Of a stretch of DNA of 25,363 bases, positions 7,926 to 25,012 are shown in pieces. A model generated the notes under the pieces. It saw nothing but the letters and a program-made list of their open reading frames with translations. It did not search any database and was not told the DNA's origin. A program made the translations under genes and the position numbers. This DNA comes from Entrophospora sp. SA101. Lineage: Eukaryota; Glomeromycota; Glomeromycetes; Entrophosporales; Entrophosporaceae. The stretch is taken from positions 1-25,363 of the forward strand of contig CAUDNR010000710.1 of assembly GCA_958430865.1 (NCBI GenBank), given 5' to 3'. Each line of letters starts with the position of its first letter. Position 1 is the stretch's first letter.

Positions 7926-8272
7926 AGCAAGTGCCGTTTTTCCACGAAAAACTAAAAGTGTTCTCCAATCTGATTTTAAAATTTTTTTTTAAAAAAAAAT
8001 CATAAATATCTTTATTATTGCCCTTTTCCAATAGAGAACTTTAACCCCAAGAATGAGTGGGCGCTCCTGCTAATAAAGAAACTCTTAATTTATTTTCTTG
8101 CATTTTACTTGTCTATTCGCTAATTTTACATTGCTACTACCACCTGCTACTTTTTTCATTAGTATATACCAAAATAACATTTTTCTAAACAAAACTTACC
8201 CCAAGACATTCTCTTCTAATTTCGTTGGTATTTTTGGTATTTCATTTTTTTTTTTAATTAAGGAACAAAATT

Positions 8273-8759
8273 ATGGGATATGCACTGGTAAATTATCACA
8301 CTCAAAGTCGAATCATCAGACACGGTCAATTCTAATACGGTAAAGCAAAAAGAATCTACACTTTATTTAGTGCGAATCCTCTGATACCATCAATACCGTA
8401 AATCAAAAATTCAAGGCAAGGAAGATGGCACCCTACCAGATCAACAATGTTTAATATTTACAGGAAAACAATCGAAAGACAGACGATCGTGCTCTTTCTG
8501 ATTACAACATTCAAAAAGAACCAACCCTTCCACTTTGTGTTTCGTTTTCGTGGTGACATGCAAATATTCGTTATTTAAACACTTGCCGGTAAAACAATCA
8601 CATTTGAAATCGAATTATTTGATACCATTGACGCTGCAAAACAAAAGGTCTGAAACAAGGAAATGAGCAAAGATTAAATTTTTTTTGCGGATAAACAATT
8701 GTATTCTTCCTGGTTATAAAAGAATCAACCATCCACCTTGTTTCTTTGTCTCCGTGGTA
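8273..8759 (+). pseudogene. Degenerate polyubiquitin (about three repeats), block copy 1
   Basis: Head-to-tail ubiquitin units are recognisable in shifting frames. Unit 1 (from 8273) shows the TGK...ESSDT region after a one-base correction. Unit 2 (about 8368-8555) shows ESSDTINTVNQK, then DYNIQKEPTLPL. Unit 3 starts at ATG 8558 as MQIFV followed by an inserted codon and a stop, then TLAGKTITFEIE, DTID, further stops, FADKQL, and ends near KESTIHLV...CLRGS. At least three in-frame stops and several frameshifts make it dead. No introns are visible, so it may be a retrocopy or an old duplicate. The plus-strand 81-residue frame at 8098-8343 partly overlaps it and is not a gene. Confidence 0.88.
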
Positions 8760-9375
8760 GTGTCAATATAAAAAATGAATGAGTCGAGTAAAACAAAATA
8801 AATAATATATTCAAGGCAAATTATATAATATTGCGATAGATTATTTAAAAATTAAAAAAGTTTTATATTTAAAAATACTTGTTAAATATATATATAAATT
8901 ATTAAATATGTAAATATTGGTCTTATTATGAAGTTTAAAATAAATAAACAATTCTTATAAAATAGTCTCATGAGATTTGATGGTATAAATATTATTTAAG
9001 TTTTTTTTATTAAATAAAACTTTTCAACCGACTTAATATATATATATATATATAATTAATTATGTATTCGTACATTTTTTTTAAAAAGAATAAATAATTA
9101 AAGAACATTTACAAAGAAAGAAAGAAAGAAAGATAAAGAAAAAAAAAGGATAGGACATGAGGAATTTAAAAATATAATATATAAAATACAAAAATAAAAA
9201 ATATATATATATATTATATACAATAGAAAGAAAGAAAGAAAAATATAATTTTATACAAAAAGAAATAAAAAGGAAGTAGGTTGAAGACGTTGATATTTAA
9301 ATAAAAAAAATTTTATAATAATAATTTAATAATAATAATAAAATTAATACTTGTGGAGTGAGTAACAATTTGTCT
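8760..9375. other. AT-rich 3' flank of the peptide gene with microsatellites
   Basis: Contains a TA run near 9034-9052, GAAA repeats near 9115-9132 and 9224-9242, and a TA run near 9201-9215. No coding frame is supported. The part next to 9376 probably includes the 3' untranslated region of the minus-strand peptide gene. Confidence 0.5.
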
Positions 9376-9885
9376 CTAGTAGTATTTGTGCTTGTAGTAT
9401 TTATTGTAGTATTTATGCTTGTAGTATGCATCAGCATCAGCATCACGTTTGTAGTATTTATGCTTGTAGTATTTATTGTATTTATGCTTGTAGTATGCAT
9501 CAGCATCAGCATCACGTTTGTAGTATTTATGTTTGTAGTATTTATTGTAGTGTTTCTTGTAGTATGCATCAGGGTTGGCGTCACGTTTTGCGAGATCTTC
9601 TTCTTCATCATCTTCTTCGTCGACACCACGTTTGTAGTATTTATGTTTGTAGTATTTCTTGTAGTATTTCTTGTAGTATGGATCAGGGTTAGCGTCCCGT
9701 TTTTCGACTTTTTATTTTGTAAAAATAATAATTATTAAAAAAATTGTGGTTTTTATTTAATTGGATTAGAGAATAATATAACTTTTTTTACCTTCGATGT
9801 CCTCACTATCTTCCTCTGGTCCTTCAGCAAAGACCAAGGCGATGAACATGGCAATTAAAAATAAGATACTAAGATTCAACTTCAT
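9376..9885 (-). CDS. Secreted Kex2-type repeat-peptide precursor, copy 1 (four peptide units)
   Basis: Two exons on the minus strand, 9885-9792 and 9707-9376, with an 84-base intron (gtaaaa...aaaag). They join in frame to 141 residues. Residues 1-20 are a classic signal peptide (MKLNLSILFLIAMFIALVFA), with cleavage likely before EGPEEDSEDIE, an acidic pro-segment. From 34 the protein is a series: KR, DANPDP, YYKKYYKKYYKHKYY, KR; an acidic spacer (59-71) and KR; DANPDA, YYKKHYNKYYKHKYY, KR; DADADA, YYKHKYNKYYKHKYY, KR; DADADA, YYKHKYYNKYYKHKYY and stop. Kex2 would cut after each KR; X-Ala/X-Pro dipeptides would then be trimmed as in yeast alpha-factor maturation. The family fits fungal Kex2-processed repeat proteins. 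The mature role (pheromone, symbiosis signal, wall or metal-binding peptide) cannot be read from sequence. A TATA box lies 118 bases upstream. Confidence 0.9.
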
Positions 9886-10002
9886 TTTTAAATGAATTAT
9901 TTTTTTTTTTATTGTATTTTATTTTTATTTTTTTTTATTATTTATTATTATTTACTTTTTTGAAGTGAAGAAAGAAATTGGAAGTTGACGAGAATTTGCG
10001 TG

Positions 10003-10011
10003 TTTATATAG
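10003..10011 (-). promoter_or_regulatory. TATA box of peptide gene, copy 1
   Basis: On the minus strand the sequence reads CTATATAAA, 118 bases before the ATG at 9885. It is followed by a C/T-rich stretch (TTTCTTTCTTCACTTC) typical of a fungal transcription start region. It is identical in copy 2. Confidence 0.55.
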
Positions 10012-10019
10012 ATGTTTTT

Positions 10020-10794
10020 ATTCCCAAGTATTACTAACGAATTATTATTATCTCTTAGTATATTTGTTTAATAAAGGAAAAAAAAGCCACCATTTACTAA
10101 CATTGAATAATCGAGTTTTAGCAAAGCCCAAGAATAAATTTGTACATAGCCATTTATTTCCTATATTAATTGTTAATTGATTCGATTGTGATAATTATAA
10201 TAATAAATTTTGTTATTATAAAATATACAAGAAAAATATTTCATAGCCACGTCTTTTTAATAGATTTTACATCACTGTCTTTAAGCCTTCTCCTTGATCC
10301 GGTAGTTTTCATAGCCACGGGTTTTTTTTTTATAATGATTTCGTATCCCCCATCCTGTCTTTAAGCCTTCTCCTTAATCTCGACATCTCTATGATTATTA
10401 TTATTATAGTCAATAATTATATATAATCAATTTAACCATTTATCCAATCGAAGGCTTTGCTTTTTTTTCCGCAAGGAAAAAAATCTTTATATGCTTACAT
10501 AGCCTCTCCGCGTACCTCATCGATCTACGGTTGTATCCAAAATAAAACAAAAGCCCTAATTACTTATTTGGAGATCAAGAATGTGTGATTGTATTCTCGA
10601 GATGGCATTTATTTATTTAATTTCCTTTTATGTCATAATAAAAAATTATTTTTCTTTAAGGCTTCGCAATTGTGCAATTGGGCTTGGTAAATTTTCAACG
10701 GTAGTACAAGTCCTAATTTCTAAAAAATTTTTTTAATCCAAGCCGCTTTAATATTTGTAATACTTTATTAGCAAATAGTAATGGTGATAAACAT
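10020..10794. other. Non-coding upstream part of the block, copy 1
   Basis: No gene is seen. CTGTCTTTAAGCCTTCTCCTT occurs twice (10275-10295 and 10355-10375), and TTCATAGCCACG twice (10240-10251 and 10308-10319). These form an imperfect direct repeat with a spacing of 68-80 bases. The 64-residue frame over this area (10170-10364) begins without an ATG and is not supported. Confidence 0.55.
10462..10483. other. Perfect hairpin with GCAA loop, block copy 1
   Basis: TTTTTTTCC and GGAAAAAAA form a 9-bp perfect stem around a GCAA tetraloop (GNRA class, unusually stable in RNA). It is repeated exactly at 15231-15252 in copy 2. Its role is unknown; it could be part of a small decayed element. Confidence 0.6.
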
Positions 10795-11008
10795 AGCATA
10801 GTGGAAATTTGAAATGTTACACTAATTTTTTATATTGTGCAACGTAGCTTTACAATACACAGCAAACATTCTGGCAATAAAAAGTAAGTGATAAACTGTA
10901 TTTGAATTGGATCTCCAATTTAGAGAGGTAACAACTATATACCGGAGAAGTTTCAGAAGCAATGAGTTCTGTATAACGTTTCGTGTAACAACAAACTTCC
11001 ACTATGCT
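10795..11008. mobile_element. MITE, copy 1, ends at duplication breakpoint
   Basis: The ends are AGCATAGTGGAA and TTCCACTATGCT, a perfect 12-bp terminal inverted repeat. Weaker inverted similarity continues inward (TTTGAAATGTTACA against TTTGTTGTTACACG). It is 214 bp with no coding capacity. The left flank TGATAAACAT is not repeated on the right here, whereas it is in copy 2. A second TIR-like end, CCACTATGCTAAT, lies 71 bases beyond (11070-11082) and is preceded by AAATCAAATG, which resembles the other TIR in reverse. The right side of this copy may therefore be chimeric. Confidence 0.75.
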
Positions 11009-12490: not shown

Positions 12491-12918
12491 ATAAATGAAT
12501 GAATGAAAGGGCTTGTTTATTATTTTTTTAAAAAAGTTACTGATAAATTATAAACTTATTTTTATGCATAAAGCAAGTGCCGTTTTTCCACGAAAAACTA
12601 AAAGTGTTCTCCAATCTGATTTTAAAATTTTTTTTTAAAAAAAAATCATAAATATCTTTATTATTGCCCTTTTCCAATAGAGAACTTTAACCCCAAGAAT
12701 GAGTGGGCGCTCCTGCTAATAAAGAAACTCTTAATTTATTTTCTTGCATTTTACTTGTCTATTCGCTAATTTTACATTGCTACTACCACCTGCTACTTTT
12801 TTCATTAGTATATACCAAAATAACATTTTTCTAAACAAAACTTACCCCAAGACATTCTCTTCTAATTTCGTTGGTATTTTTGGTATTTCATTTTTTTTTT
12901 TAATTAAGGAACAAAATT

Positions 12919-13405
12919 ATGGGATATGCACTGGTAAATTATCACACTCAAAGTCGAATCATCAGACACGGTCAATTCTAATACGGTAAAGCAAAAAGAA
13001 TCTACACTTTATTTAGTGCGAATCCTCTGATACCATCAATACCGTAAATCAAAAATTCAAGGCAAGGAAGATGGCACCCTACCAGATCAACAATGTTTAA
13101 TATTTACAGGAAAACAATCGAAAGACAGACGATCGTGCTCTTTCTGATTACAACATTCAAAAAGAACCAACCCTTCCACTTTGTGTTTCGTTTTCGTGGT
13201 GACATGCAAATATTCGTTATTTAAACACTTGCCGGTAAAACAATCACATTTGAAATCGAATTATTTGATACCATTGACGCTGCAAAACAAAAGGTCTGAA
13301 ACAAGGAAATGAGCAAAGATTAAATTTTTTTTGCGGATAAACAATTGTATTCTTCCTGGTTATAAAAGAATCAACCATCCACCTTGTTTCTTTGTCTCCG
13401 TGGTA
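12919..13405 (+). pseudogene. Degenerate polyubiquitin, block copy 2
   Basis: Same sequence as 8273-8759, with the same stops and frameshifts. The gene was therefore dead before the block was duplicated. The third unit begins at ATG 13204. Confidence 0.88.
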
Positions 13406-14021
13406 GTGTCAATATAAAAAATGAATGAGTCGAGTAAAACAAAATAAATAATATATTCAAGGCAAATTATATAATATTGCGATAGATTATTTAAAAATTA
13501 AAAAAGTTTTATATTTAAAAATACTTGTTAAATATATATATAAATTATTAAATATGTAAATATTGGTCTTATTATGAAGTTTAAAATAAATAAACAATTC
13601 TTATAAAATAGTCTCATGAGATTTGATGGTATAAATATTATTTAAGTTTTTTTTATTAAATAAAACTTTTCAACCGACTTAATATATATATATATATATA
13701 ATTAATTATGTATTCGTACATTTTTTTTAAAAAGAATAAATAATTAAAGAACATTTACAAAGAAAGAAAGAAAGAAAGATAAAGAAAAAAAAAGGATAGG
13801 ACATGAGGAATTTAAAAATATAATATATAAAATACAAAAATAAAAAATATATATATATATTATATACAATAGAAAGAAAGAAAGAAAAATATAATTTTAT
13901 ACAAAAAGAAATAAAAAGGAAGTAGGTTGAAGACGTTGATATTTAAATAAAAAAAATTTTATAATAATAATTTAATAATAATAATAAAATTAATACTTGT
14001 GGAGTGAGTAACAATTTGTCT
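13406..14021. other. AT-rich 3' flank of peptide gene copy 2
   Basis: Identical in the parts compared to 8760-9375: TA runs and GAAA microsatellites of the same length, no coding frame. Equal microsatellite lengths in both copies point to a very recent duplication. Confidence 0.5.
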
Positions 14022-14654
14022 CTAGTAGTATTTGTGCTTGTAGTATTTATTGTAGTATTTATGCTTGTAGTATGCATCAGCATCAGCATCACGTTTGTAG
14101 TATTTATGCTTGTAGTATTTATTGTATTTATGCTTGTAGTATGCATCAGCATCAGCATCACGTTTGTAGTATTTATGTTTGTAGTATTTATTGTAGTGTT
14201 TCTTGTAGTATGCATCAGGGTTGGCGTCACGTTTTGCGAGATCATTTTGTTCTTCTTCATCTTCCTCTTCGTCATCGAGATCACGTTTGTAGTATTTATG
14301 TTTGTAGTATTTCTTGTAGTATTTCTTGTAGTATGCATCAGGGTTGGCGTCACGTTTTGCGAGATCTTCTTCTTCATCATCTTCTTCGTCGACACCACGT
14401 TTGTAGTATTTATGTTTGTAGTATTTCTTGTAGTATTTCTTGTAGTATGGATCAGGGTTAGCGTCCCGTTTTTCGACTTTTTATTTTGTAAAAATAATAA
14501 TTATTAAAAAAATTGTGGTTTTTATTTAATTGGATTAGAGAATAATATAACTTTTTTTACCTTCGATGTCCTCACTATCTTCCTCTGGTCCTTCAGCAAA
14601 GACCAAGGCGATGAACATGGCAATTAAAAATAAGATACTAAGATTCAACTTCAT
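14022..14654 (-). CDS. Secreted Kex2-type repeat-peptide precursor, copy 2 (five peptide units)
   Basis: Two minus-strand exons, 14654-14561 and 14476-14022, with an 84-base intron, giving 182 residues. Signal peptide, pro-segment, first unit and last three units equal those of copy 1. The extra 41 residues (74-114 in the joined protein, with the flanking repeats allowing other phasings) consist of a unit DANPDA + YYKKYYKKYYKHKYY + KR and a distinct acidic spacer DLDDEEEDEEEQNDLAKR. The unit thus adds another copy of the same 15-mer as unit 1. All Lys-Arg sites and dipeptide leaders are intact, and TATA box, intron and coding frame are all kept. Both copies therefore look expressible. Function is unknown; processing is inferred from the alpha-factor-like layout. 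Confidence 0.9.
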
Positions 14655-14771
14655 TTTTAAATGAATTATTTTTTTTTTTATTGTATTTTATTTTTATTTT
14701 TTTTTATTATTTATTATTATTTACTTTTTTGAAGTGAAGAAAGAAATTGGAAGTTGACGAGAATTTGCGTG

Positions 14772-14780
14772 TTTATATAG
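14772..14780 (-). promoter_or_regulatory. TATA box of peptide gene, copy 2
   Basis: CTATATAAA on the minus strand, 118 bases upstream of the ATG at 14654, identical to copy 1. The upstream sequence is shared to beyond 15500, so both genes should have the same proximal promoter. Confidence 0.55.
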
Positions 14781-14788
14781 ATGTTTTT

Positions 14789-15563
14789 ATTCCCAAGTAT
14801 TACTAACGAATTATTATTATCTCTTAGTATATTTGTTTAATAAAGGAAAAAAAAGCCACCATTTACTAACATTGAATAATCGAGTTTTAGCAAAGCCCAA
14901 GAATAAATTTGTACATAGCCATTTATTTCCTATATTAATTGTTAATTGATTCGATTGTGATAATTATAATAATAAATTTTGTTATTATAAAATATACAAG
15001 AAAAATATTTCATAGCCACGTCTTTTTAATAGATTTTACATCACTGTCTTTAAGCCTTCTCCTTGATCCGGTAGTTTTCATAGCCACGGGTTTTTTTTTT
15101 ATAATGATTTCGTATCCCCCATCCTGTCTTTAAGCCTTCTCCTTAATCTCGACATCTCTATGATTATTATTATTATAGTCAATAATTATATATAATCAAT
15201 TTAACCATTTATCCAATCGAAGGCTTTGCTTTTTTTTCCGCAAGGAAAAAAATCTTTATATGCTTACATAGCCTCTCCGCGTACCTCATCGATCTACGGT
15301 TGTATCCAAAATAAAACAAAAGCCCTAATTACTTATTTGGAGATCAAGAATGTGTGATTGTATTCTCGAGATGGCATTTATTTATTTAATTTCCTTTTAT
15401 GTCATAATAAAAAATTATTTTTCTTTAAGGCTTCGCAATTGTGCAATTGGGCTTGGTAAATTTTCAACGGTAGTACAAGTCCTAATTTCTAAAAAATTTT
15501 TTTAATCCAAGCCGCTTTAATATTTGTAATACTTTATTAGCAAATAGTAATGGTGATAAACAT
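14789..15563. other. Non-coding upstream part of the block, copy 2
   Basis: Equivalent of 10020-10794. The internal direct repeats lie at 15044-15064 and 15124-15144, and the GCAA hairpin at 15231-15252. No gene seen. Bases 15554-15563 (TGATAAACAT) are the left target-site duplication of the adjacent MITE. Confidence 0.55.
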
Positions 15564-15788
15564 AGCATAGTGGAAATTTGAAATGTTACACTAATTTTTT
15601 ATATTGTGCAACGTAGCTTTACAATACACAGCAAACATTCTGGCAATAAAAAGTAAGTGATAAACTGGATTTGAATTGGATCTGAACTTGATCTCCAATT
15701 TAGAGAGGTAACAACTATATACTGGCGAAGTTTCAGAAGCAATGAGTTCTGTATAACGTTTCGTGTAACAACAAACTTCCACTATGCT
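15564..15788. mobile_element. MITE, copy 2, with target-site duplication
   Basis: 225 bp bounded by AGCATAGTGGAA and TTCCACTATGCT. The left flank TGATAAACAT (15554-15563) is matched on the right by TGATAACAT (15789-15797). This is a 9-10 bp target-site duplication with one base lost in an A run. A 9-bp duplication fits Mutator-like elements best, hAT (8 bp) less well. No coding capacity. Compared with copy 1 it has an 11-base insertion and several substitutions in its right half. Confidence 0.8.
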
Positions 15789-15797
15789 TGATAACAT

Positions 15798-16374
15798 AGC
15801 CTCGTTAAAATATTAGTAGTTTATTAAGAAAAAATTCAGGAAGATCAAATTTTCAAAAATAATCCTCAAAGAAATAATTTCTTATTTATGTTTATTTATT
15901 GAAAAAAATCCGTATATTTGTTACGATTTTCCATTATATAGTAATAGTGAAATCTTTTCTTATGACATGAACATTATTATTTCACCACGGCCAAAGTAAA
16001 CCATATGCAATTTTTCACTCACTGTAGCGAGATTCGACTGTATATCGTAACGGGAGCTTAATTATGGCAAGATATGGTTTAATTAATTAAATCAGTAAAA
16101 AAAAATAAGTATATTTACTCACTCTCATGAAAGATAACACACGAGAATAGCAAAATAATTGAATCCAAACAATTTGCTGAAAAACGAAACTTTTGATCGC
16201 CCATCCAGCATTCACTCCCAAGTAAGTATAACAGCGATTGGTTTGACGAACTTGGCTCTGACTTTATATCCTTCCTGTACTTCTGGTCTGGGAATAATGG
16301 TATCGAGAATTTGACGCTTCTACTAAGAGGAGGGGATGGGCGTAGATAGAGTCAACTGATGTGGCAAAACGGAT
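15798..16374. other. AT-rich intergenic sequence, nothing recognised
   Basis: No coding frame, RNA gene or clear repeat is recognised. The part near 16190-16340 is less AT-rich than its surroundings but matches nothing I can name. Confidence 0.4.
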
Positions 16375-16760
16375 CAAGCATCACCACTAACTAAAAAAGT
16401 AATTCAACAAATTTTAGATCATCCTCAAATGCAAAGCAATAATAACGAAAGCCTTATATGTAGAATTTCTTTCTAATTTGTTTATTATGTGGTTTAAGAG
16501 AAGGTGGTGCATATAAGCTTGAAATGCAAAGTTTTTCTAGATGTTTAGACGGAGGGTTAAATTTATCGTTATATACTGAAAAAAAATAATCAAATGGGAG
16601 TATTTAAACGAAATAATGATGGTGTACCTGAAGATGAAATTATCAAATTTTCTGAACACAGATCAAGAGAAGAATCGTGCTTATATGCTTTTTTGGGGGT
16701 TGGGTGTGTAGGACCTATAATTGTACTTACTATACTCAAATTCTTCTACTTATGTTCGTA
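16375..16760 (+). pseudogene. Crypton-like tyrosine recombinase relic
   Basis: Three frames must be joined to follow it. Frame one from 16375 reads QASPLTKKVIQQILDHPQ, the lead-in seen in eukaryotic tyrosine recombinases of the Crypton/KIAA1958 type. After a shift near 16470 it reads FFLICLLCGLREGGAYKLE, where GLR(x)GG carries the first catalytic Arg. After a second shift near 16590 it reads GVPEDEIIKFSEHRSREES, equivalent to the 'GVPEDxIxxxxGHRS' box with the conserved His. The catalytic His/Arg box before it, and the nucleophilic Tyr, are missing or not recognisable. It is therefore a deleted, frameshifted pseudogene. I assign it from motif order; the exact subfamily is uncertain. Confidence 0.7.
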
Positions 16761-16839
16761 ATATACTCACTGCACGAAGTGTACTGTATTCAAACTGCAT
16801 ATACCCTTAAAAATACACAAGAAAATCACTTGTCACGTC

Positions 16840-17160
16840 TCAACGAATTTTATATGTGAAGCAAAAATTTTAAAAGTTTGTTATAACGCGAATTTATTTA
16901 TAATTCATTGAAATAAGATTCGTTGAATGAAGTTTGATTGTATAACAAAAAAAAAAATCATTATTTTGTGACTTAAGCACTCAAAATTATTTCCTAAACC
17001 ATTTCTAAACTAATAATGCCAACACTATTAGTAATTTTACGAATAATAAATTTGAGACATTAACTATATTTATTCATAACATTATTATTACCATTCTCAG
17101 CGAATTATAATTAAATTCGCGTTATAAAATGTTTTTTGCTTTACATATAAAATTCGTTGA
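16840..17160. mobile_element. MITE with long (about 70 bp) imperfect terminal inverted repeats
   Basis: The left end TCAACGAATTTTATATGT...AAGCAAAAA...ATAACGCGAATTTA..TTATAATTC (16840-16906) is matched in reverse by 17100-17160. The two arms differ by a few substitutions and a 6-8 base indel. The inner 190 bases are AT-rich and non-coding. No clear target-site duplication is seen next to the ends, so they could extend a little further. It overlaps the tail of a spurious 60-residue frame (16677-16859). Confidence 0.8.
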
Positions 17161-17417
17161 AATACAATAAGTAATGAAATTTTCTTTGATATTATTTATT
17201 ATCAAACTGGAAAGAAAATTAAGTTAAAATTCGTTATACAAGTTAAATAATAAACAAGATTTTGTTCCTCTTCCTTTACCAAGAAACTGAGAAATAAATA
17301 AAATTAATATTCGCCAAAGTAAATTAAAATAAACAACTTCCATTTTAATCGCGTTTTGTAGATAAAATAGAGTGTCTAAAGTATGACAGGTCTTGTAACA
17401 CTTGAACAAGAAGTGAA

Positions 17418-17687
17418 GTGTGGAGTCATTTTACAGTTGTGCCAAATGTATTATTATACCAGGTAAATATCTTTATTGACTTTCGGAACCATTTATTTCC
17501 AAAGGCGACTAACTCTTTGGAATTCAGATTATTTCATATGGTATATATTCGAATTAGATTCGAACAAAGTCAAATCAAATTAATGCACGATTCGAATGAA
17601 ACAAATCAAAAATTAGTCAATGCGAATTTCATTGATTCGTTCGAAGCCTTAAGGAGACACAAAAAGGTTGAACTGATGAAGGGATAA
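17418..17687 (+). pseudogene. Possible gene fragment of unknown origin
   Basis: An open frame runs from after the TGA at 17403 to the stop at 17685. It has no ATG near its start; the first in-frame ATG encodes the Met of HMVYIRIRF. The C-terminal half (RFEQSQIKLMHDSNETNQK and following, ending HKKVELMKG) has a balanced, amphipathic composition unlike random AT-rich DNA. A 42-base segment, GTAAAT...CCAAAG (17463-17504), could be an in-frame mini-intron, but it is shorter than every other intron in the window. I do not recognise the family. It may be a relic exon of a transposon or host gene. Confidence 0.3.
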
Positions 17688-18439
17688 TCCTTCCGGGCTT
17701 TTTTTTGTTTCTCTTATCCAAATGGTTGATGAGGAGCAATTCAAACATCGCAAATTACAGAATTAATTAACTTAATTGTTATCAGCTAGTCAAGAATAAA
17801 CATTATGAGTGGAGATTAACTAATTACTTGAATGCGCAAATTCGACAGTATTGAATTTAGTCTGGCCGGAATGTACTTTATTTTTACAAAATATATAAGG
17901 TTTATTATCTTTCTGCCGTCATTTTATTGTCAACAGTGATGTACGTGATATCATTATTATAACCAGTCATCTAAACCCTTATTATTGTTTTTATTGTATG
18001 AATTTTATTTATGGATATGATCAAACTATATATTTATTTATTTACTATTACATCATTCGTTAATGACGAAGCCACCCAGCACAATAGTTCTTTCTAAAAG
18101 GATTACATTTTGACTTGCACTTGCTACAACAATATCAGACTTTGGTGTTGGTGTAGCTCAATTAATCGGTTCAACCCTTGCATCTCCCATCGGCCAAAAC
18201 TTTACGTGGTTTTTTTTTAAAAAGATATGTTTTAAATGAGTGGCGGGTGATAACCACCACCATCCTTAAAACACTTACCCAGAAACATCAACAATGAATT
18301 CTTTTCTTCTTCTATTATTTCCTGATGACATTTTTTTAAAAAAAGTTTGTGATTTGATCGACACATACACATTAATTATTTATCCTATTGGTTTTTTTTT
18401 TGGCGAATTGATACCAATAATAATATTCAGCAACAATCA
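17688..18439. other. Intergenic sequence with a repeated motif
   Basis: No gene seen. TGACGAAGCCACCCAGCACAATA at 18064-18086 recurs as TGACAAAGTCACTCAGCACAATA at 20575-20597. GTTGGTGTAGCTCAATTAATCGGTTCAACC at about 18146-18175 resembles pol III A- and B-box sequence set too close together. It cannot be folded into a tRNA. Confidence 0.45.
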
Positions 18440-18679
18440 ATGTTGGCAGACATGGTTGTAGGTAATACAGTAAAGTTAATGTTACCTGTAGAAACAAAGA
18501 AACAGAAGACTACTGAAGAAGGAACAGGTGTAGCAATGGACATACAATCAGATGGAAGTGATTCAAGACAAAAAAAAGAACCTAAAAATAATGAAGGATC
18601 AAAAGAAACAAAGAAAAAGACTATGAAGAAAGCACCCAGAAAAAGAGAAATACAGTACAACATCCAATTTCGAATTTGA
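18440..18679 (+). pseudogene. Upstream frame of a retroelement-like gene (gag-side, broken by frame change)
   Basis: An ATG-started frame of 79 residues, Lys/Glu-rich, with a basic tail (KKTMKKAPRKREIQYNIQF) leading directly into the next frame. The following ORF lies in the -1 frame relative to this one and overlaps it by about 85 bases (open after the TGA at 18592). Such a Lys-rich linker upstream of a retropepsin is usual in Gag-Pol proteins of fungal retroelements. Either one base was gained or lost, or the second ORF is made by ribosomal frameshifting. No canonical heptanucleotide slippery site is seen. The breakage reading is more likely. Confidence 0.55.
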
Positions 18680-19686
18680 TACAACCATACTCAGTAGTAA
18701 CCGACATCAAGAAGCAGAAAGCTGATATTACCTTCGGGCAATTATTCCAAGCAGTACCAAAATTGAGATTGGAATTGTCTGGGAGTTTACGAACCCTACA
18801 AACAACCAGAGTTAAGAAAACAACACCACAGTCCGAGCAATTAAATGCCGAAATAAGATCAACCGTAATGTACTGCAAAGCAAGTATCAATGGAAGAAGC
18901 TTTCCTATCATTATAGATAGCGGAGCAGCAGGAAGTATAGTTTCAAAAGGATTGTTAGATAAACTAGGAGTAAAAATTACCATCAATGTAAATGGACAAA
19001 AAACTTCACCTTTGGGAGAAGTAGATGACTTACCACTAACCATTGGAGGAATAACAATTCCATTATCAGCAATCGTAACAGAAGCAAACACTTATAATGC
19101 TATCCTAGGAAATGATTGGTTATCCAAATTAAATGCTGTAGTAAATTGGAGCGATTTGAAATTAACATTCTATTGGGATGATCAAAAAGCAACTATAGAA
19201 GTGGCACATAAGTATGGAGAAGAACTATCATCAGATGATAATGAATCCAATTCGTCGGAACATGAAAGCTCAGATTCAGACGGAGAATTAGAAGTATTCA
19301 TGTTGGAACAACACTCCAGAAAAACGTCCCAAATGGTGATAAGATATGAAGAAGAAACCGAAGAGGAAACTAAAGAAGAAGACACCAATTATAATGATGA
19401 CACATACCCAGGAATCATAGAAGCATACAACTTCACAATGGATAAAGTTGAAAGACCACTTACGACTATGAAGGAGGAGTGGCACATATTTCGAGGAAGA
19501 CACTACCCATGTGAATGCGGAGAAGAAGACCATCATAACCATTTCCGATGCATATGGTGCAAACAAATATGCAAAGGTTTCCATCAAAGATGTAGATGCA
19601 ATTGGGAAGAAAAGATACAAACCTATAATCTAAATGTCGGAACCGAAGATGAAAAAGAAATAGACCAATCCCTACAAAAAGTTTAG
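18595..19686 (+). CDS. Retropepsin-like aspartic protease ORF of a retroelement, with Cys/His cluster
   Basis: The frame is open from about 18595 and has no obvious own ATG upstream of the conserved part (codon 18676 is TTG). Numbered from 18676: PYSVVTDIK and ITFGQLFQ (4-25) are a segment common just before the protease in retroelement polyproteins. DSGAAGSIV (81-89) is the catalytic Asp-Ser-Gly flap motif, and ILGNDWL (about 144-150) is the second conserved retropepsin element. A very acidic region follows (170-260). Then comes a Cys/His-rich end (HYPCECGEEDHHNHFRCIWC, then KQICKGFHQRCRCNW), likely zinc-binding. The stop is at 19684. No reverse transcriptase, RNase H or integrase follows. 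This is either a truncated retroelement or a domesticated protease gene; the intact catalytic motif over 336 codons leaves the second option open. Confidence 0.75.
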   Translation, partial: RIKRNKEKDYEESTQKKRNTVQHPISNLIQPYSVVTDIKKQKADITFGQLFQAVPKLRLELSGSLRTLQTTRVKKTTPQSEQLNAEIRSTVMYCKASINGRSFPIIIDSGAAGSIVSKGLLDKLGVKITINVNGQKTSPLGEVDDLPLTIGGITIPLSAIVTEANTYNAILGNDWLSKLNAVVNWSDLKLTFYWDDQKATIEVAHKYGEELSSDDNESNSSEHESSDSDGELEVFMLEQHSRKTSQMVIRYEEETEEETKEEDTNYNDDTYPGIIEAYNFTMDKVERPLTTMKEEWHIFRGRHYPCECGEEDHHNHFRCIWCKQICKGFHQRCRCNWEEKIQTYNLNVGTEDEKEIDQSLQKV

Positions 19687-24365: not shown

Positions 24366-24985
24366 GGTCTTTTAGCGAATTGCAAATGGTTTTTTTTGAA
24401 TTGTATTAAAAAAAAATGGACCTTTGGCAAATTGCAAAAAGGCTTTTGACATAAATCATTTTAATTTTAAAAAATGGACTTTTGCATGAATTGTAAAAAG
24501 AATTGTAAAAAATAGACTTATGGCGTGAATTGTAAAAATAATTTTTGAATTGTAAAAATGGTCTTTTGGTGAATTGTAAAAAAAAGACTTTTGACATTAT
24601 CATTTAAATTGTAAAAAATAGACTTTTGGCGTGAATTGCAAAAAGATTTTTTGAATTGTAAAAAATGGTCTTTTGGCGAATTGTAAAAAAAAGACTTTTG
24701 ACATTATCATTTAAATTGTAAAAAATAAACTTTTGGCGTGAATTGTAAAAAAAGACTTTTGACATTATCCTAATAAATCATTTAAATTGTAAAAAATAGA
24801 CTTTTGGCATGATTTTTGAATTGTAAAAAATGGTCTTTGGCGAATTGTAAAAAAAGATTTTTGAAATTATCTTAACAGATCATTTAAATAAAAAAATACA
24901 CTTTTGGCGTGAATTGTAAAAAGATTTTTTGAATTGTAAAAAATGGTCTTTTGGCAAATTGTAAAAAAGATTTTTGAAATTATCT
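24366..24985. repeat. Degenerate tandem array, GAATTGTAAAAA core
   Basis: Variants of TGGTCTTTTGGCGAATTGTA and AGACTTTTGACATTATC recur throughout, separated by AAATTGTAAAAAATAGAC blocks. The short unit is about 30-55 bases and a longer composite of roughly 100-120 bases can be made out. The copies differ by small indels and A-run length, and no reading frame survives. The 65-residue minus frame at 24406-24603 only reflects the repeat (FYNS/FLQF recurrences). Confidence 0.8.
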
Positions 24986-25012
24986 TAATGGCACGGGATT
25001 TATCTTACAATA

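Follow-up and report, generated by a model that had tools for sequence, protein, structure and literature searches.

Many KEX2-processed repeat proteins (KEPs) have been described from Rhizophagus irregularis, most of them with STE13 signatures nearly identical to those of yeast, and the peptides deduced from them are Tyr-rich (Le Marquer et al. 2019, PMC6339444). One KEP type, common to Rhizophagus, Diversispora, and Trichomonascus, gives a hit with the Apidaecin profile (PMC7329392). R. irregularis also secretes Kex2-type proteins, including SP7 and its relatives as well as a group expressed mostly in planta (PMC5293756). Kex2-like sites occur in Geosiphon proteins, and S9 proteases are present in fungi generally (PMC8786786, PMC5567314). 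In Pichia, a mushroom KEP has been shown to lose its XA/XP dipeptides after dibasic cleavage, and there are indications of such trimming in Pleurotus (Vogt et al. 2022, PMC9769878); the hymenoptaecin and apidaecin precursors of insects, with their KR plus X-A/X-P layout, have been likened to the alpha-factor type (PMC3415428). In the available portions of this literature, no peptide ligand is named for the STE3 pathway of AM fungi and no role for Tyr-rich KEPs; SP7 is an effector and of another sequence kind.

The window, i.e. the whole stretch of 25,363 nucleotides of Entrophospora sp. SA101 DNA that was analyzed, has a GC content of 23-36 percent per kilobase and contains a gene, here called A, that has the KR-separated repeats of a KEP; a Kex2-type protease is encoded in the same organism. 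Its class is not new because PMC6339444 already reports Tyr-rich KEPs with STE13 signatures from R. irregularis. With a probability of roughly 0.5, we favor the reading that gene A encodes a KEP-type precursor whose cores are released by a Kex2-type protease, freed of their leaders through a dipeptidyl peptidase, and exported as cationic peptides of 15-16 residues, which would act by charge and aromatic contact and not as a mate pheromone.

Gene A and its relatives in the assembly

Gene A occupies positions 9885-9376 of the minus strand in two exons and encodes 141 residues (Table 1). Position, strand, and frame were re-derived and agreed with the preliminary description of this DNA. A hydrophobic N-terminus is followed by an acidic segment and then by four units, each consisting of KR, an X-Ala/X-Pro leader, and a core. 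The cores are rich in Tyr, Lys, and His and have lengths of 15, 15, 15, and 16 residues, the last one ending the protein; all four differ, and the three shorter ones share 12-13 of 15 residues. The four secreted products predicted earlier match those of the present gene model, which in addition contains an acidic spacer followed by KR between cores 1 and 2 that had gone unmentioned. The splice choice adopted for gene A is one among several possible in silico. The proposed 84-nt intron gains credibility from a GTAA donor that would be usable at the matching phase-1 place in four modeled relatives (window copy B and the members on contigs C264, C560, and C223).

Table 1. Positions of gene A, gene B, their parts, and the duplicated blocks in the window
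Feature	Position	Strand	Content or basis
Gene A, exon 1	9792..9885	-	MKLNLSILFLIAMFIALVFA (signal-peptide-like, judged by eye) and start of acidic pro-segment
Gene A, intron	9708..9791	-	84 nt, phase 1, GTAAAAAA...AAAAAG; place and phase common to five modeled precursors
Gene A, exon 2	9379..9707	-	End of acidic segment, four KR-leader-core units, one acidic spacer
Gene A, stop TAG	9378-9376	-	Closes gene A
Leader 1, DA-NP-DP	9679..9696	-	Coordinates counted off gene model
Core 1, YYKKYYKKYYKHKYY	9634..9678	-	Gene model
Acidic spacer, GVDEEDDEEEDLA	9589..9627	-	Between KR sites, cores 1 and 2; not an X-A/X-P run
Leader 2, DA-NP-DA	9565..9582	-	Leader analysis
Core 2, YYKKHYNKYYKHKYY	9520..9564	-	Gene model
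Leader 3, DA-DA-DA	9496..9513	-	Leader analysis
Core 3, YYKHKYNKYYKHKYY	9451..9495	-	Gene model
Leader 4, DA-DA-DA	9427..9444	-	Leader analysis
Core 4, YYKHKYYNKYYKHKYY	9379..9426	-	Gene model
Gene B (second copy)	14022..14654	-	182 aa, five cores, two acidic spacers
Gene B, exon 1	14654-14561	-	
Gene B, intron	14560-14477	-	
Gene B, exon 2	14476-14025	-	
Gene B, stop	to 14022	-	
Duplicated block, copy A	7926..11008	none	Gene A and flanks; alignment
Duplicated block, copy B	12572..15788	none	Gene B and flanks; alignment

A six-frame search of the organism's own assembly (101.3 Mb, 2,123 contigs) yielded a family of five precursors: A and B, both in the window, a further version on C264, and two diverged members, one each on C560 and C223, which have the signal exon and the phase-1 intron in common with gene A. 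In all five gene models, exon 1 measures 94 or 97 nt and is followed by a phase-1 intron of 84-99 nt with a GTAA donor and by an exon 2 made up of KR-bounded units, and the N-terminus, as judged by eye, is hydrophobic with small residues at its end (5/5). The precursors contain 4 (A), 5 (B), 6 (C264), 7 (C560, where the array runs into an N gap), and 4 (C223) cores, i.e. 26 units in total, each bounded by KR or a stop.

Blocks A and B differ by only 3 mismatches in 3,083 aligned bases, apart from one 123-bp unit and 11 gap columns. The 123 bp present in addition in B correspond to one whole repeat unit and keep the reading frame. C264 matches window positions 14157-18133 at 99.87 percent in inverted orientation; the match does not continue leftward of window position 13771, and the first 8,822 bases of C264 are N. 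The A, B, and C264 versions could represent alleles, recent duplications, or products of the assembly, and copy number should be read with caution also because mirrored pieces and N gaps occur at C560 and C223.

Searches of a protein database, in which fungal proteins may be few, returned no relative at E <= 0.001, either with gene A (344 candidates) or with an alignment of the three precursor types (7,994 candidates scored). Among viral contigs, 16 stretches fitted a pattern in a search with the C223 protein, and none was a relative. Neither an Rfam nor a tRNA scan gave a match in the window. Elsewhere in the window, an open frame on the plus strand (18595-19686) encodes a retroelement-type aspartyl protease domain (PF13975), and positions 24463-24988 hold an imperfect tandem repeat array with a unit of ~107 bp.

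Leaders consist of X-Ala/X-Pro dipeptides in a single phase

The preliminary description had read gene A as a precursor for Kex2 and a dipeptidyl peptidase, with KR sites followed by leaders of X-Ala and X-Pro only. As a prediction, this layout held across the family: from KR to the first YY, the leaders are pure X-A/X-P runs in 26 of 26 units, in five precursors of three divergent types. All 93 dipeptides end in A or P, and in the other phase A or P was found in 0 of 93. Leaders comprise 1, 2, 3, or 10 dipeptides. For the ten-dipeptide leaders of C223, e.g. DA-SP-EP-VA-DA-EP-NA-EA-DP-EA, permutation gave P = 5.4e-6 each; these values are not to be multiplied, given the kinship of the three leaders of this length and the near-identity of A, B, and C264. 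Of the 13 acidic segments, not one consists purely of X-A/X-P dipeptides (a 14th entry, the two-residue tail DA of C560 before the N gap, was set aside), so the rule would serve the removal of leaders ahead of cores. The leader data are strong evidence, on the level of sequence, that the X-Ala/X-Pro phase has been kept under selection for trimming by a dipeptidyl peptidase.

Over the 101-Mb assembly, a DNA pattern for KR-[DE]A-X[AP] gave 38 matches and its reversed form 6; 26 of the 38 lie inside the five-precursor family. A looser pattern, KR-(X[AP])x3, was too noisy (at least 206 matches against at least 120 in the control), and the tighter one was used instead. Beyond the family, the tight pattern occurs at 12 places, of which 11 (all but the second on C410) were inspected by eye, and none was clearly a further KEP. 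Four places on C86 belong to an array of 12-residue repeats that includes KREALP; no signal is visible in its frame, and a coding role is conceivable. On C848, no frame of 30 aa carries the motif. C86 contains two similar arrays of 12-residue KREALP/KRETLP units ~28 kb apart (L055 1013-1309 and L056 1020-1193, minus). The C410 candidate (C410:48932-49717; L060 933-1718) encodes a protein that looks secreted, has several KR sites and a Gly/Ala-rich C-terminal part, and contains one KREAEP; it was not accepted as a clear KEP.

Low-complexity repeat DNA can be open in several frames, and further frames on both strands are indeed open at this locus. It is nevertheless extremely unlikely that no gene is present, given that the two-exon architecture is common to five precursors of three types and that the leader rule survives their divergence. 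Changes between repeat units are also least frequent at second codon positions (positions 1/2/3: 11/0/14 in A, 21/6/29 in C560, and 2/0/4 in C223).

Processing enzymes and receptors encoded in the assembly

A Kex2 homologue, the presence of which had been proposed as a check, was found. Kexin-type genes are encoded in the assembly: P-domain profile matches lie at three loci (C1444, C1694, and C10), and one C10 exon matched the Kexin entry of the PDB with an E value of 6.6e-45.

The outcome of the corresponding check for a Ste13 homologue speaks against a simple scheme. The DPPIV_N profile identified a single DPP-IV-like locus, C1306, where the DNA pattern coding for GWSYGG also has its single occurrence in the assembly. 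With one exon as query, the nearest proteins were DPP8 (E 8.9e-26) and DPP9 (3e-25), whereas the best DPP-IV reached 3.7e-8. DPP8 and DPP9 are cytosolic in animals. The sole plausible methionine of the N-terminal open frame of C1306 (MINSTW) lies in a stretch without signal or anchor; immediately upstream of it, the open frame encodes a hydrophobic segment that no methionine precedes, and an anchor contributed by an unseen upstream exon is conceivable. A search with the S28 peptidase profile, run without a control, gave no match in the assembly. The Peptidase_S9 profile added only a match on C2074, which was dismissed as a fungal trimming enzyme since its neighbors are bacterial. This contig (locus L077, 20500-26500) encodes a bacterial S15 protein that passes its cut-off (E 1.5e-22), a DnaJ/TopJ-like start that, as a piece, stays below the cut-off set for the whole protein (E 9.7e-23), and one frame that is open only if TGA is read as Trp. 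C2074 looks like DNA of a Mollicutes-related endobacterium within the fungal assembly; such endobacteria are known from Mucoromycota (PMC11423566). Together with the GC content of the window and the Tyr-rich KEPs with STE13 signatures, this contig makes an arbuscular mycorrhizal (AM) fungus the probable source; the AML2 primer had no match, a result that either speaks against this or is uninformative, as the rRNA may be mismatched or missing from the assembly.

No clear gene for a secretory Ste13-type dipeptidyl peptidase was thus seen in the assembly, in which an intron-split or unassembled gene could escape the search. With the DPP8/9-like C1306 as the only DPP-IV-like gene found, a flawless dipeptidyl-peptidase code has no clear Golgi enzyme to match it; this unexpected discrepancy is the point of the analysis that is most useful to take further. 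In PMC6339444, the presence of STE13 was scored by BLASTP at E 0.001, and a DPP8/9 homologue could pass that threshold as well.

Receptors had also been suggested as a check, with a divided outcome. STE3 profiles matched 16 stretches on five contigs (C1293, C1329, C1226, C1948, and C1664), some of them duplicates, to judge by the identical scores that several share. A STE2-type receptor gave no match in the assembly, in a search without positive control against genes that are intron-split. The short and insensitive Pfam profiles MF_alpha and MF_alpha_N had no match at E <= 0.1 in A and C223, two of the five precursors. Yeast STE3-type receptors bind farnesylated a-factor, and the STE3 ligands of Dikarya are farnesylated a-type peptides. 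For Rhizophagus, one STE3 gene and STE6 have been reported and no pheromone gene was found (Halary 2013, PMC3834313); STE3, STE6, mating-like expression, and no pheromone precursor are the picture given by the accessible text of this paper together with PMC7490403. The 16 STE3-type matches on five contigs stand here beside that one Rhizophagus gene.

These data bear on the idea that the cores are linear ligands of G protein-coupled receptors like alpha-factor and serve as a fungal peptide signal, be it a pheromone or a hyphal hormone. The layout equals that of alpha-factor precursors, STE3-type receptor exons occur at several loci, hormone-like roles were proposed for KEPs with STE13 signatures in PMC6339444, and STE3 plus STE6 without a pheromone gene in Rhizophagus leaves a ligand to be found (PMC3834313). 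Yet core sequence and length vary within one precursor and between genes, the MF_alpha search and the STE2 search (run without positive control) gave no match, the Dikarya ligands of STE3 are of the farnesylated a-type, and the mating-pheromone genes followed in PMC7490403 were not upregulated in co-inoculated isolates. A peptide signal is therefore in our view rather unlikely. The layout itself is no pointer to mating, because it is found in insect antimicrobial precursors too; being common to alpha-factor, mushroom KEPs, and these insect proteins, it does not name a function. The step from layout to pheromone taken in the preliminary description was not upheld, considering the variable cores, the missing MF_alpha match, the finding of STE3-type but no STE2-type receptors (STE2 search without positive control), and a single DPP-IV-like gene that is closer to DPP8/9 than to DPP-IV, and a pheromone reading of gene A appears weak. 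Variable cores fit a sequence-tolerant function better than a specific receptor ligand.

Core properties and possible functions

The five precursors contain ten distinct cores, between 9 and 22 residues long. Despite their divergence, a grammar is kept: every core starts with Tyr-Tyr, and YY doublets alternate with mostly basic residues. Computed linear monoisotopic masses of the gene A cores are 2228.146, 2188.089 (cores 2 and 3, which are isobaric), and 2351.153 Da. A helical reading was discarded: the aromatic periodicity peaks at 60-85 degrees, and the moment at 100 degrees is 0.08-0.43 for the ten cores, so that no clear amphipathic helix is apparent. Four core strings had no match in the main texts of the papers searched.

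The net charges of the five precursors are +4, +1, -4, -2, and +5. Acidic spacers bring A, B, C264, and C560 near balance, long leaders do so in C223, and the absolute net charge stays below 0.62 binomial SD in these five related proteins; with few independent precursors, the balance is suggestive and not significant. Under the favored reading, the precursor would enter the secretory pathway via its predicted N-terminal hydrophobic segment and would be cleaved by Kex2 after each KR, with K and R taken off by a Kex1-type carboxypeptidase. One to ten X-A/X-P dipeptides would then be removed stepwise until the enzyme halts at the initial Tyr-Tyr of the core. KK pairs inside the cores could provide further cut sites. 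Acidic leaders and spacers would nearly offset the basic residues in the precursor, and since the latter is close to charge balance (net -4 to +5), trimming would unmask positively charged peptides. Likely targets would be the fungal wall, the root interface, or microbial surfaces. For the predicted processing of the gene A precursor, our confidence is fair. The favored reading is in line with the 26/26 leaders and 93/93 dipeptides, the kexin-type genes, the frame-keeping 123-bp unit, the YY grammar, the low number of changes at second codon positions, and the trimming seen with a mushroom KEP. Against it speak the proximity of C1306 to DPP8/9 and findings in mushrooms, where synthetic KEP peptides from Coprinopsis had no effect on bacteria and knockout of kep genes caused no phenotype (PMC9769878, as far as its available text reports).

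Because no clear secretory Ste13-type enzyme was found in the fungus, we also considered that the acidic leaders form a removable charge mask, which a dipeptidyl peptidase from a partner, i.e. the root or hyphosphere bacteria, strips away once outside the hypha. This is quite improbable. If true, cationic Tyr/Lys/His peptides would be switched on only at a living interface, and leader length (1-10 dipeptides) would set a delay.

The core sequence is of low complexity and tolerant and is present in many copies, and Tyr and Lys are cross-linkable residues. The cores might hence coat the hyphal wall or cross-link into it as structural or surface peptides, a possibility that we regard as doubtful. 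The model would be Ustilago Rep1, like gene A a KEP with many similar peptides, which form fibrils and serve attachment (PMC9769878, PMC5293756). Rep1, however, has no STE13 signature in the account of PMC6339444, whereas the leader rule is strict here, and no wall anchor was seen. Tyr-rich cores might also point to a Tyr-cyclized RiPP of the ustiloxin/dikaritin type, all the more as cyclization was raised as a question for the Rhizophagus peptides in PMC6339444. UstYa (PF11807, DUF3328) had no match in the assembly, in a search without positive control, nor among the window ORFs scanned with Pfam (5 of 24 long ORFs), and we consider a RiPP very unlikely.

One strict rule of processing defines a set of short peptides that can be synthesized, by which both a ligand for STE3 and a role for Tyr-rich KEPs become testable. 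Among known systems, the alpha-factor precursors (MF-alpha) of ascomycetes share with gene A the pro-region, KR followed by X-A/X-P leaders, tandem peptides, and a signal that is putative in gene A. The family described here differs in lacking an MF_alpha match and in its variable Tyr/Lys/His-rich cores without Trp, and the assembly differs from the MF-alpha system in having neither a STE2 match (no control) nor a clear Ste13-type dipeptidyl peptidase. Mushroom KEPs with STE13 motifs have the same layout outside the Ascomycota, and there trimming has been seen; the detected cores named in PMC9769878 are short, mostly Trp-ending, and not Tyr/Lys-rich. In apidaecin and ant hymenoptaecin precursors, repeated antimicrobial peptides stand behind RR/KR and EAEP-type spacers, and the same processing in three steps has been proposed; these precursors belong to another kingdom, and the ant cores have 97 residues (PMC3415428). 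The likeness to gene A noted here is one of layout. SP7 and its relatives are, like the predicted gene A product, secreted repeat proteins of AM fungi with Kex2-type sites bounding the repeats. Unlike the reading given here, SP7 is described as an effector acting as native protein, and a STE13 signature is unmentioned in the description of PMC5293756 on which this likeness rests. Acidic spacers and ten-dipeptide leaders, found in the present family, are not mentioned for the R. irregularis KEPs in the available portions of PMC6339444. With these KEPs gene A has in common the KR-separated repeats, the near-canonical STE13 dipeptides, the richness in Tyr, and a signal peptide that is putative in gene A; judged by description, they would form one class with gene A, and the genes themselves may be the same.
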